Shown piece after piece: positions 99-5,809 of a stretch of DNA of 32,105 bases; the stretch's first letter is position 1, and each line of letters opens with the position of its first letter. Origin of the DNA: a virus. The stretch is taken from IMG/VR virus record IMGVR_UViG_3300044591_000458, positions 1 to 32,105 of that record. One strand, given 5' to 3'. The notes beneath the pieces were generated by a model that did not search any database, was not told where the DNA came from, and saw only the letters and a program-made list of their open reading frames with translations. The translations under genes were made by a program, and so were the position numbers.

Positions 99-158
99 TT
101 ATGAACCAAGAACTACGAAACGAATTGGTGCAATGTTATAAGAATAATTTGCAGAATT
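1..158. repeat. Terminal redundancy, left copy
   Basis: These 158 bases recur at 31948-32105 with two differences (G at 127 and G at 154; A in both cases in the right copy). The overlap means the contig closes into a circle of about 31,947 bp, as for a circularly permuted or circular phage genome. Both differences fall at third codon positions of the DnaA-like gene and are synonymous (TTG/TTA Leu, CAG/CAA Gln). Confidence 0.95.
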
Positions 159-532
159 TACGAATCCTTCACAGAACGTTAGTAAATGCCAAAATTATAA
201 CAGAAGATTTTGCAGTTAGTTCAGGAATCACAGACATAAAGCCAAACAGATTGGTTGAGTTAGTACAAGACGTTTTTGAAACAGACATTGTTGCAAAGAA
301 TCGTAAACAGTCAACCATATTTGCCCGTAAAGCTGCGGCATACATTTTAAGAAAATACACTCAATTATCTTTAAATGAAATTGCACCTTTAATTGGGGTC
401 GGCGACCATACAACAGTTATATACAATATTCAAACCGCTTCAGATTTAATGGACACCGAAGATTGGTACAGAGAAAAATTAATGCAAATTGAAGAAGATA
501 TTGAAAATTATAATAACTTTGTAAAGAAATAA
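101..532 (+). CDS. DnaA domain IV-like DNA-binding protein (no ATPase domain)
   Basis: A protein of 143 residues. Residues about 65-125 resemble domain IV of bacterial DnaA, the helix-turn-helix part that reads DnaA boxes. The signature GDHTTV lies at residues 101-106, next to LIGV, and an ARKAAAYILRKYT helix precedes it at about 75-88. The AAA+ ATPase domain of full DnaA (over 400 residues) is absent. The first 60 residues are helical and unrecognised. In DnaA the DHTT loop contacts the box DNA, so sequence-specific DNA binding is a strong inference. Possible roles are recruiting or blocking host initiation, binding the phage origin, or regulating transcription; two DnaA-box-like 9-mers lie in the phage promoters at 8205 and 29581. 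The gene follows the SSB-like gene across the circle junction with a 2-nt gap and precedes the structured RNA at 533-625. Confidence 0.85.
   Translation: MNQELRNELVQCYKNNLQNLRILHRTLVNAKIITEDFAVSSGITDIKPNRLVELVQDVFETDIVAKNRKQSTIFARKAAAYILRKYTQLSLNEIAPLIGVGDHTTVIYNIQTASDLMDTEDWYREKLMQIEEDIENYNNFVKK
489..521 (+). promoter_or_regulatory. Candidate Bacteroidetes-type promoter at end of DnaA-like gene
   Basis: TAACTTTG at 514-521 matches the Bacteroidetes -7 consensus TAnnTTTG, and a TTG at 489-491 lies 22 nt upstream as a possible -33 element. Transcription would begin near 527-530, just before the first hairpin of the structured RNA. The -33 part and the slightly long spacer are weak, and the site lies inside coding sequence. 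Confidence 0.45.
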
Positions 533-625
533 ACAAAAGCGTTATGGTACAACGCAGTTAAAAATATATTGGGTCAACGGATTCACGGCAAGTACCATTT
601 GCCGAAGTCCCGCGACCCTTTTTTT
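533..625 (+). ncRNA. Structured RNA with two complementary 7-nt hairpin loops, ending in a terminator-like stem
   Basis: Hairpin 1 pairs GCGTT (539-543) with AACGC (551-555) around the loop ATGGTAC (544-550). Hairpin 2 has an apical stem CGGCAA (586-591) / TTGCCG (599-604) around the loop GTACCAT (592-598). The two loops are exact reverse complements over all 7 nt, so a kissing complex is possible. Hairpin 2 extends through a middle stem (579-583 with 606-610, one G-U) to a base stem GGGTC (571-575) / GACCC (614-618), followed by seven T (619-625), as in an intrinsic terminator. The next start codon is at 629. It could be an attenuator in the leader of that gene or a free small RNA of about 95 nt. 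I do not recognise it as a known family. Confidence 0.7.
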
Positions 626-628
626 ATT

Positions 629-1318
629 ATGGCTATATTTAGAAAAATTCACGTCAGCTTTTGGAAGGACGAATTTATTGAAAGCTTAACGCCTGAACAG
701 AAGTTTTTTTATTTGTATTTAATGACTAATGACCGTACGACACAATGCGGTATTTATGAAATTACAATAAAACAAATGTGTTATGACACGGGTTACAATG
801 AAGACACAATTAAAAAGCTAATTGAATTCTTTACGAAATGCGGAAAAATACAATATTCTTTGGCTACAAAAGAAATGGCAATGAAAAATTGGGCAAAATA
901 CAATGATTCAACTTCGCCAAAGGTTAAAGCCTGTATAAATAAAGAACTTTTGAAGGTAAAAGATACAGTATTGATACAGTATATATACAGTATGGATACA
1001 CATACGCAAGAAGAAGAAGAACAAGAAGAAGAAGAAGAACAAGAAAAAGAACAAGTTGATTTTAAAATTTTGTTTTTAGATAAGATTGAACCATTTAAGG
1101 GTTTATTGGGGGAATCATACCAAGAATTTATTGATTATTGGTGCGAATCGTCAAAAAGTGGTAAATTACGTTATCAATCAGAAAAATTTTTTGAACCGAA
1201 GCGTCGCGTTAATACGTGGCTTCAAAACAAAGTAAAGTATGGAAATACAAAAAATACTGACGCAACCGCTGCAAGTCGCAAAAGAATGCAAGACTTACAA
1301 AATTGGGTTAATAGCTGA
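629..1318 (+). CDS. Phage replisome organizer-like protein (wHTH N-terminal domain)
   Basis: 229 residues from ATG 629. A TTG 60 nt upstream is in frame but would place the start inside the terminator-like stem, so I reject it. The N-terminal 100 residues (IFRKIHVSFWKDEF, then CGIYEITIKQMCYDTGYNEDTI) fit the winged-helix domain of phage replisome organizers and DnaD-like initiators, with the usual pattern of an organism-state helix followed by an HTH. Residues about 125-145 are a run of Glu and Gln (coded by gaagaa repeats), a flexible acidic linker. The C-terminal part (about residue 150-229, F-ExKRRVNTWLQNK) is like the end domain of such proteins. It would bind the origin and help load the helicase. 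It overlaps the next gene by 80 nt. Confidence 0.65.
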   Translation: MAIFRKIHVSFWKDEFIESLTPEQKFFYLYLMTNDRTTQCGIYEITIKQMCYDTGYNEDTIKKLIEFFTKCGKIQYSLATKEMAMKNWAKYNDSTSPKVKACINKELLKVKDTVLIQYIYSMDTHTQEEEEQEEEEEQEKEQVDFKILFLDKIEPFKGLLGESYQEFIDYWCESSKSGKLRYQSEKFFEPKRRVNTWLQNKVKYGNTKNTDATAASRKRMQDLQNWVNS

Positions 1319-3658: not shown

Positions 3659-4140
3659 TGGCTAATTTTATACACCCAACCGCCATAATTGGCGACAACG
3701 TTGAATTAGGCGACAACAATTACATTGGCGCTTATTGTATCATTGGCGACCCCGCTGAACATAAAAAATATTGGGGTCAACCGAAAGGCAAAGTTATAAT
3801 TGGTAACGGCAATATGATAACAGGTTTAGTTACTATTGACGCGGGAACTGAAGACCCAACGATTATTGAAAATGGTTGTTTCATAATGAAACACGCGCAC
3901 ATTGGTCACGATTGCCATATTATGAATGACGTAACGATTAGCTGCGGCGCAAAAATTGGGGGACATTCTGTTGTTGGCGAAAAATCAAATATTGGATTGA
4001 ATGCAGTTTTACACCAATTCAGCATAATCAAAAAAGGTTGTATGATTGGTGCAAGCGCTTTTTTCAAAGGGGTATCAGAACAGGAAATGAAATATGCCGG
4101 CGTGCCTGCGCGCAAGCTTGGTTCAAATATAAGAAAATGA
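3658..4140 (+). CDS. LpxA-like left-handed beta-helix acyltransferase
   Basis: 160 residues made of hexapeptide repeats (IHPTAIIGDNVELGDNNYIG, then VIIGNGNMITG, HIGHDCHIMNDVTISCGAKI). This is the left-handed beta-helix fold of LpxA, LpxD and sugar acetyltransferases. The HAHIGHDCHI stretch (about residues 81-90) is like the LpxA active-site region, where a histidine is the catalytic base. LpxA itself is about 260 residues; this copy lacks the helical C-terminal domain, so it is shorter than the cellular enzyme. It is the first gene of a cassette with two glycosyltransferases, so it probably acylates a sugar or sugar nucleotide. The target (host surface glycan, virion protein or DNA) is unknown. 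Confidence 0.75.
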   Translation: MANFIHPTAIIGDNVELGDNNYIGAYCIIGDPAEHKKYWGQPKGKVIIGNGNMITGLVTIDAGTEDPTIIENGCFIMKHAHIGHDCHIMNDVTISCGAKIGGHSVVGEKSNIGLNAVLHQFSIIKKGCMIGASAFFKGVSEQEMKYAGVPARKLGSNIRK

Positions 4141-4814
4141 ATATAGCCGTAATTTTACTAACCCTAAACAGAAACGACTTAACCAAACGCGTTATTGACC
4201 AAAATTTTAAAAATTCAGGTTATAACGCCGAATGCTTTTTAGTTGACAACGGAAGCGACCAAGTCCCGTATGAAATGTACAATTGGACAAACTGCAATGT
4301 ATCTTCTAAACTAAGGGGAATTGCAGCCGGTGTAAATGCCGGATTAAAAATGACCAAAGCATACGACGGCGTTTGTATTTTAGCAAATGATATTTTGCTT
4401 CCTGAAAATTGGCTTTTAAAGTGGGTTAATTATGCAAACCTAATACCAAAGACGGGCATTATTGGGATTCATTGCGTTGAAAATTTGCCGCCATTAACAG
4501 ACGGAGTGCATAAAGTACATACGCCATTTGGCGACAATTATCTTACAAGGGAATTAATTGATACCATTGGCGGTTACAATGAAGAATATGACCCTTATGG
4601 AATGCAAGACCAAGACTTCGCTGAACGCGCAAATATTGCAGGATTTACAAATTATTATATTCCCGACCTACGTTCTGAACATATTGGACACGACGTTGGC
4701 AATGGCACAGAATACCGCAGAATGAAGGACGAAAGTTTAGCACGTGCGCAATCCATTTGGGAAAAATACCAACCAATTTACCATACAGAAAAAAAGATTA
4801 AATGCGCATTTTAG
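4137..4814 (+). CDS. Glycosyltransferase, GT-A fold (family 2-like)
   Basis: 225 residues from ATG 4137, which overlaps the stop of the acyltransferase in ATGA. An upstream in-frame start at 4038 would lie inside that gene and is rejected. Features of GT2 enzymes are visible: VILLTLNRND at the N-terminus, VDNGSD at 36-41 (nucleotide-binding D37 and D41), VNAGLK near 66-71, ILAND at 81-85 as the DxD position, and YGMQDQDFAERA around 154-165 with the likely catalytic acid, then HIGHD at 182-186. The enzyme would transfer a sugar from a nucleotide sugar. It overlaps the next glycosyltransferase by 13 nt. Confidence 0.8.
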   Translation: MNIAVILLTLNRNDLTKRVIDQNFKNSGYNAECFLVDNGSDQVPYEMYNWTNCNVSSKLRGIAAGVNAGLKMTKAYDGVCILANDILLPENWLLKWVNYANLIPKTGIIGIHCVENLPPLTDGVHKVHTPFGDNYLTRELIDTIGGYNEEYDPYGMQDQDFAERANIAGFTNYYIPDLRSEHIGHDVGNGTEYRRMKDESLARAQSIWEKYQPIYHTEKKIKCAF

Positions 4815-5809
4815 CAATTACAAGTAAAACAAGCGGCGTCGGTTACCATAGAATCATTATGCCAATAGTCAATATGCAAAAAGACTATTGTTTAATGACT
4901 GACACATTAAGCGAAGAAACATTTGAAGGGAATTATGATATTGTGGTTATGAATCGTATGTTGGCAAATGTAACGCCCGAACAAATGGACGGCTTCCGTA
5001 AAAAATACGGGTTCAAATTAATTGTTGATAACGACGACTTTTGGCACTTAGACCCTTCGCATTTATTATATGAACGATATATTTTAAATAACATACCGAA
5101 ACAAATTATTGATTGGATTCGTATTGCTGACCTTTGCACCGTTACGCACGAACGATTAGCAGAAGAAGTTAAACTGTACAATTCAAATGTTGAAATTGTG
5201 CCAAATGCCATTCCATACGGCGAAGAACAATTTAAAGATTTTAAAAAGGATTCAGACATTGTTCGTTTGTTTTGGTCAGGTTCAGGCACACACGGTAAGG
5301 ATATGGAAATTTTACGCAATCCAATGAAGCGTATTAATTTTCCGGTACGAACTGTAATTGCAGGATATAACGAAGGCGAAAAACCAATTTGGGACGGAAT
5401 GATTGCAGCATTTACTAACGGGTTAAAATTAAACCCGACGATTTACAATTATAACGAAGTCACTTCATATATGGCGGCATACGCGGATTCAGATATTTCA
5501 TTAATTCCTTTGGTAGATTCCAAGTTTAATTCAATGAAGTCAAATTTAAAGGTATTAGAAACCGCAGCAAAGAAGAACCCCGCAATAGTTAGCAACGTAC
5601 ACCCGTACAGGGGTTTTTATCCTGCCTGTCACGTAAACAGTCAAAAAGATTGGTATTATTGGATTAAGTTATTAGTAAATGACCCTGACGCCCGAAAACA
5701 CTACGGCAACGCTTTGTACGAATACTGCAACAAGAATTTCAATTTACACGAAGTAAACAAACACCGATTCGCTATTTATAGTAAACTAATAGGAAATGCC
5801 GGTAATTAA
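4802..5809 (+). CDS. Glycosyltransferase, GT-B fold (family 4-like)
   Basis: 335 residues, normal for a GT-B enzyme. The N-terminal Rossmann half begins RILAITSKTSGVGYHRI. The hinge carries VEIVPNAIPYG (about 130-140), and the C-terminal nucleotide-sugar-binding half has LFWSGSGTHGKD and KSNLKVLETAA (about 247-257), the place of the E-x7-E region. This fits family 4 transferases that retain anomeric configuration. Together with the acyltransferase and GT-A gene it forms a translationally coupled glycan cassette. It overlaps the next gene by 14 nt. Confidence 0.75.
   Translation: MRILAITSKTSGVGYHRIIMPIVNMQKDYCLMTDTLSEETFEGNYDIVVMNRMLANVTPEQMDGFRKKYGFKLIVDNDDFWHLDPSHLLYERYILNNIPKQIIDWIRIADLCTVTHERLAEEVKLYNSNVEIVPNAIPYGEEQFKDFKKDSDIVRLFWSGSGTHGKDMEILRNPMKRINFPVRTVIAGYNEGEKPIWDGMIAAFTNGLKLNPTIYNYNEVTSYMAAYADSDISLIPLVDSKFNSMKSNLKVLETAAKKNPAIVSNVHPYRGFYPACHVNSQKDWYYWIKLLVNDPDARKHYGNALYEYCNKNFNLHEVNKHRFAIYSKLIGNAGN

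Follow-up and report, generated by a model that had tools for sequence, protein, structure and literature searches.

ColE1 RNA I and RNA II carry pairs of 7-nt loops that are complementary over all seven bases. Among phage RNAs, the phi29 pRNA has covarying kissing loops that act between molecules and binds the portal, and the T4 leaders of the I-TevI type hide the ribosome site of a phage homing endonuclease gene in a hairpin. The purine riboswitch is a leader in which two 7-nt loops are in contact, followed by a terminator. In the pT181-type attenuators a leader terminator and a loop-loop contact control rep genes, and changes in loops and stems give orthogonal types (PMC3753616). Furthermore, kissing loops also join the molecules of the phage RNAs GOLLD and ROOL (PMC12286853).

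Set beside these systems, the element described here is, as predicted by comparative analysis, a self-complementary two-loop RNA of about 90 bases that heads replication operons in many viruses of Bacteroidota-type bacteria. The window, that is, the whole stretch of DNA analysed, covers positions 1 to 32,105 of the IMG/VR record IMGVR_UViG_3300044591_000458. It belongs to a tailed phage, because terminase, portal, tape measure, Erf and DNA polymerase exonuclease genes are present, and the INPHARED phage collection holds no near relative of it at the DNA level. Two other observations concern the window. An E/Q-rich low-complexity stretch inside the initiator gene (974-1049) is 84% identical over 76 bases to Listeria phage LP-030-3, a match that looks like simple sequence, and two adjoining glycosyltransferase-like genes (phrog_2456, phrog_7162) lie at 4038-5809. 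The features of the locus are the following:

101 to 532, plus strand: upstream gene, a protein with the DnaA C-terminal domain (PF08299, DnaA domain IV, E 7.6e-14)
514 to 521, plus strand: -7 promoter box TAACTTTG (TAnnTTTG), Bacteroidota-type by its sequence
539 to 555, plus strand: hairpin H1, stem GCGTT (539-543) with AACGC (551-555), loop ATGGTAC
544 to 550, plus strand: kissing loop 1, ATGGTAC, complementary 7/7 to 592-598
556 to 570, plus strand: single-stranded linker AGTTAAAAATATATT, from the segmentation of 30 elements; its ending TATT before H2 recurs among relatives
571 to 618, plus strand: hairpin H2, with basal stem, internal loop containing a short middle helix, and upper stem, supported by covariation
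571-575 with 614-618, plus strand: H2 basal stem, GGGTC/GACCC
586-591 with 599-604, plus strand: H2 upper stem, CGGCAA/TTGCCG
592 to 598, plus strand: kissing loop 2, GTACCAT, complementary to loop 1
619 to 625, plus strand: T-run of seven T by sequence, putative intrinsic terminator (4-8 T in relatives)
629 to 1318, plus strand: replisome organizer / DnaD-like replication gene (phrog_6251, E 3.3e-48; phrog_1701, E 7e-34)

A first, sequence-only reading had given the positions of the promoter box and of the two loops and had named both stems, the basal stem, the seven T and the ATG, and all of this was correct when checked. It had also placed the RNA between a DnaA-like gene and a replisome organizer, as the PF08299 match upstream and the phrog_6251 match downstream bear out. 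The start codon of the replication gene (ATG 629) lies 4 nt past the T-run. Regarding stability, the fold energy in the window is -28 kcal/mol against -17.5 +/- 3.1 for shuffled sequences (z -3.4), lower than in 200 out of 200 shuffles. The minimum free energy program adds two pairs within loop 2 in the window sequence only, but it is the 7-nt loop that relatives conserve.

Relatives were gathered in IMG/VR by scans with the downstream and upstream proteins, which gave many contigs. In nearly all the contigs near the window, two hairpins with fully complementary 7-nt loops lie between the upstream stop and the downstream ATG, and the relatives have a common plan: Bacteroidota-type promoter, H1, short linker, three-tier H2, T-run and the ATG of the replication operon. 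A scanner demanding loop complementarity and a T-run found 82 unique elements with 11 types of loop 1 (GTTGCAG, ATGGTAC, GTCGCAT, ATTGCAG, ATGCGAC, ATGCAAC, GTAGGAT, GTCGGAT, GTCGTAT, GTACGAG and GTGAGAT). The strict search, which asks for two hairpins, 7-nt loops complementary throughout and a T-run, had no match in 900 kb of dinucleotide-shuffled relatives, which rules out a chance origin of the element. Furthermore, a pattern search of the DNA only, blind to proteins, gave 45 stretches and both hairpins were present in 45/45. Nearly all these copies stand directly before a replication initiator or a Rep/DnaB operon; the gene behind them is a replication initiator, or encodes an HTH protein (PF13730) and has a DnaB-like gene after it, or, in a single stretch, is methyltransferase-like. 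At L323:6103 onward a DNA methyltransferase-like gene comes first behind the RNA, in place of the initiator.

Five contigs (L035, L042, L046, L047 and L048) have more distant versions with 7-9 complementary bases in the loops, which stand at the head of the operon with one or two small genes between them and the initiator; another is found in the isolated Tenacibaculum phage JQ (L273; MT002873). The loop match of these distant versions consists of single cases and is weaker evidence, as the relaxed search gave 8 chance matches scoring at least 10 in 900 kb. In L038, about 644 to 530 nt upstream of the initiator gene, a putative H1 region is complementary to a later hairpin (GGCTAAAA..TTTTAGCC and flanks); this long complementarity is perhaps a variant attenuator of a more distant phage. 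The Vibrio phages sharing the C-terminal domain of the initiator, as well as one Porphyromonas phage, were without the element. A model search of 395 Bacteroidota genomes gave no match under strict filters run without a positive control, and shows little.

Regarding known families, Rfam 15 had no match in the window at the gathering score, and on 7 relatives it gave only one sub-threshold DnaX match (E 1.5). This agrees with the earlier statement that no family fits; judged by comparison with Rfam, the element is a new RNA family. A literature search of incomplete coverage found no description of it, so that an earlier description is possible.

The structure is strongly supported by covariation in an alignment of 30 non-redundant sequences. 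Standard pairs occupied 96.5% of the cells in the four helices (H1, the kiss, upper H2 and lower H2), 21 of the 23 pairs had double changes, and there were 229 double-change cells against 67 +/- 7 after shuffling. Over all four helices the covariation score was 0.870, compared with 0.207 for shuffled data and at most 0.192 for slid partners. In the H1 stem 5/5 pairs changed on both sides (98.6% paired), and in H2 the basal stem was paired in 90.0% and the upper stem in 98.9% of the cells, every pair having double changes; the pair of the middle helix covaries too. The kissing helix was 97.6% paired, its misses coming almost wholly from one misaligned row (L195), and all four standard pairs were used at two of its positions. 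The two loops thus co-vary across relatives, on which the sequence-only reading had staked its proposal. Loop positions 3-5 are the most variable, and U at position 2 and A at position 6 are almost fixed across loop types. These two bases could also pair inside each loop (544-550 and 592-598 in the window). In H2 of many types an internal loop with UGAA opposite GRAU recurs, a possible protein site or bend.

As an independent control, 100 loci chosen by protein were searched with a covariance model that lacked the kiss. The loops were complementary 7/7 in 60/60 unique complete sense matches, and the only exceptions were one truncated match and three antisense self-matches; the model was built from elements picked by the scanner, and members without the kiss and far-drifted in sequence could escape it.

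Upstream of H1, the motif TAnnTTTG, which we take to be the Bacteroidota promoter type, was present in 70 of the 76 distinct upstream regions, nearly always at 3-22 nt and often at 3-4 nt, against a background rate of 0.985 per kb. Since it often lies 3-4 nt before H1, the RNA start is expected at or just before H1. The proposal that the transcript begins right at H1 thus suits the many relatives with a gap of 3-4 nt, whereas in the window the box ends 17 nt before H1 and the start is expected some nucleotides upstream of it. Behind H2, a T-run of 4-8 was present in 82/82 unique elements, where it was one of the scanner criteria, and also in the listed copies chosen without that criterion. The element has the features of an intrinsic terminator, a G+C-rich hairpin followed by a T-run, and its basal stem covaries. 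A reverse TAnnTTTG within 150 nt after the T-run occurred in only 2 of the 70 scored regions, and a separate antisense RNA partner was rejected, no antisense promoter of this type having been found. Finally, G-U cells numbered 53 and A-C cells 1, which indicates that the sense-strand RNA is under selection, rather than the DNA or an antisense RNA.

The genes around the RNA change more than the RNA itself. Upstream there are DnaA-C, SSB-like, methylase-like, HTH and other genes, the SSB-like, methylase-like and HTH names being read from the sequences without family search. A tie of the element to the dnaA gene is ruled out, since the RNA and the operon persist where the upstream gene is a different one. 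Downstream, the N-terminal domain varies behind a constant RNA (replisome organizer, Lin1244_N PF14297, or DUF1376-like, the last below cut-off). Between L079, L093, L101 and the window the N-terminal domains of the initiator are swapped, and the RNA upstream and the C-terminal domain are unchanged.

A second class, with loops GTGAGAT/ATCTCAC and the same promoter, linker and H2 plan, heads NUMOD4/HNH homing endonuclease genes, of which one protein was tested against Pfam and the others are alike by appearance. This class was searched by its own loops, and its apparent loop constancy may follow from the query. The copies before NUMOD4/HNH genes are:

L326, 7441-7526
L327, 6268-6353
L328, 3935-4020
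L333, 1236-1321

Their distance to the replication copy in the same contig is about 2 to 7 kb. Where both classes share a contig, the replication copy has the loop GTAGGAT (L326), GTTGCAG (L327), GTACGAG (L328 and L189) or ATGCGAC (L333). These four differing combinations are suggestive of an enforced orthogonality of paralogous leaders, although they are not proof. Because this second class heads HNH homing endonuclease genes, the RNA is better seen as a gene leader than as an origin, and the attenuator reading is strengthened, since the same RNA precedes a different kind of gene.

Loop types and phage lineages do not coincide. Between the window and L003, identity is 95% in dnaA and 93% in the initiator gene, but only 71% in loop 1 and 67% in H2. 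On the other hand, the window is only 80-81% identical to L013 or L041 in dnaA, yet 100% identical in loop 1 and H2. Near-identical phages with different alleles and distant phages with the same allele mean that discrete types cross lineages, as would be expected of specificity types or recombining cassettes. The loop type switched at least 13 times on the tree of the Lin1244-type initiator and at least 12 times on the dnaA tree, both counts possibly inflated by recombination.

We propose that this 5' leader of the phage replication operon would be a transcription attenuator with a loop-loop switch, a reading that we hold with about even confidence and that the order promoter, leader, terminator and ATG suggests. 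The sequence-only reading had offered an attenuator or a free small RNA; what stands of both is that the RNA is structured and conserved, that its loops really pair with each other, and that it has a promoter of its own and ends in a terminator at the start codon. Comparison establishes the structure and the pairing of its loops, the sense strand as the one that makes the RNA, the promoter, the T-run and the position; attenuation, the direction in which the kiss acts and action in trans are inferred. RNA polymerase would start at the TAnnTTTG promoter and make H1 and then H2. If the base of H2 closed, the polymerase would stop at the T-run, releasing a free RNA of about 90-100 nt; if it did not, the replication genes would be transcribed. 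The cis kiss between the loops of H1 and H2 would form while lower H2 is still open and, together with the short linker, would oppose closure of the terminator base and favour readthrough. Through a kiss in trans, terminated RNAs of the same type might then release the nascent H2 so that termination is restored, which would be a feedback on template number with a specificity set by the loops.

A crude worm-like-chain estimate gave a cost below 1 kcal/mol for the cis kiss with the lower stem open, whereas with H2 closed and straight-stacked the linker must be almost fully stretched or is too short. Kiss and terminator closure would thus compete, because the kiss is nearly free in one state and strained in the other; the estimate assumes straight stacking, and bends at the H2 internal loop may permit both states at once. 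The strain model expects linker length to rise with stack length, and this was absent (r -0.64, partly a boundary artefact). A search of only the pairs on either side of the upper stem of H2 recovered the middle helix, with no clear or conserved competing antiterminator helix. By itself H2 is already stable (-10 to -24 kcal/mol), so that termination does not require the kiss, and the terminator could merely end the transcript while the operon is read from elsewhere.

In a bolder form of the attenuator reading, which we consider rather unlikely, phages of one type would count their own genome copies by cis and trans kissing of identical leaders, without an antisense RNA, and would perhaps exclude or ignore other types. 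If so, the loop types would correspond in phages to the incompatibility groups of plasmids, and leaders that are paralogues within one genome would be kept orthogonal.

The alternative that survives best, though we find it doubtful, is an attenuator controlled by a protein or ligand, where the kiss would do no more than set up a fixed three-dimensional fold, and termination would be decided by a factor of phage or host that binds the H2 internal loop. The recurrent UGAA/GRAU loop of many types and the covarying middle pair favour it, and so does the loop-to-loop distance, which is nearly constant (38-42 nt in the 82 unique elements) as in a rigid fold. However, a pure scaffold needs no frequent loop switching between near-identical phages, and the internal loop differs between types, such as those of the window and L100. 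A free small RNA acting in trans on other phage or host RNAs, its place before the gene being incidental, is clearly unlikely: promoter and terminator make a free RNA probable, but in almost every case it immediately precedes the operon's first gene, its T-run adjoining the ATG. Besides, each loop 7-mer has 4 occurrences in the window, about the number expected by chance, and other loop targets within the window were therefore rejected. Improbable too are homo-oligomers, dimers or rings paired between molecules like phi29 pRNA or the GOLLD/ROOL cages. Two complementary covarying loops per RNA are typical of such RNAs, kissing loops are used by the GOLLD/ROOL oligomers (PMC12286853), and by the crude geometry cis pairing with a closed H2 looks strained; nevertheless, a small two-hairpin operon leader with a homing-endonuclease paralogue fits regulation better than a structural part. 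An origin or primer RNA for phage DNA replication, ColE1-like, would explain why most copies adjoin the replication initiator, but it is very improbable, being disfavoured by the same RNA before HNH genes about 2 to 7 kb away, and no DnaA boxes stand beside the element in the window. Finally, a DNA-level element (cruciform, operator or single-strand hairpin) or chance has a negligible probability, for the inverted repeats are visible in the DNA but the G-U bias rules out a DNA-level element, and the oriented promoter and T-run and the empty shuffled search contradict this reading as well.

The element is of interest for several reasons. A common and cleanly covarying phage RNA outside Rfam lies at the predicted switch of the replication operon of Bacteroidota-type phages, where RNA control is little known. 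If the loops act between molecules, this would be copy-number sensing by one RNA serving as its own partner, and the natural orthogonal types might be used as design parts for RNA circuits. A concrete question also becomes testable: whether kissing a terminator's own loop decides termination.

Regarding the known systems, the antisense attenuators of the pT181/pIP501 type resemble this element in having a terminator in the leader directly before the replication initiator (rep) gene and a loop-loop specificity step. They differ in needing an antisense RNA, whereas here no antisense promoter was found (TAnnTTTG searched) and both loops belong to one transcript, one of them capping the terminator. 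The parallel drawn earlier with ColE1 RNA I/RNA II holds for the geometry of fully complementary 7-nt loops and goes no further, since the ColE1 partners are a sense and an antisense RNA, RNA II being a primer for polymerase I, while here one RNA with both loops heads genes. Like phi29 pRNA, GOLLD and ROOL, it is a phage RNA with covarying kissing loops, although it has about 90 nt, is an operon leader with a terminator and has no Rfam match, and GOLLD and ROOL are large and of another plan. The purine riboswitch also has two leader hairpins whose 7-nt loops touch, but the present RNA has no three-way junction or ligand core, its loops are variable and paired over all seven bases, and it is again without an Rfam match. 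The T4 I-TevI-type leaders share a structured leader on a phage homing endonuclease gene; those hide a ribosome site, and the leader here has a promoter, kissing loops and a terminator and stands mostly on replication genes. Taken against these systems, the element is most probably a leader attenuator; the general kind is known, but its self-complementary switch is unusual.
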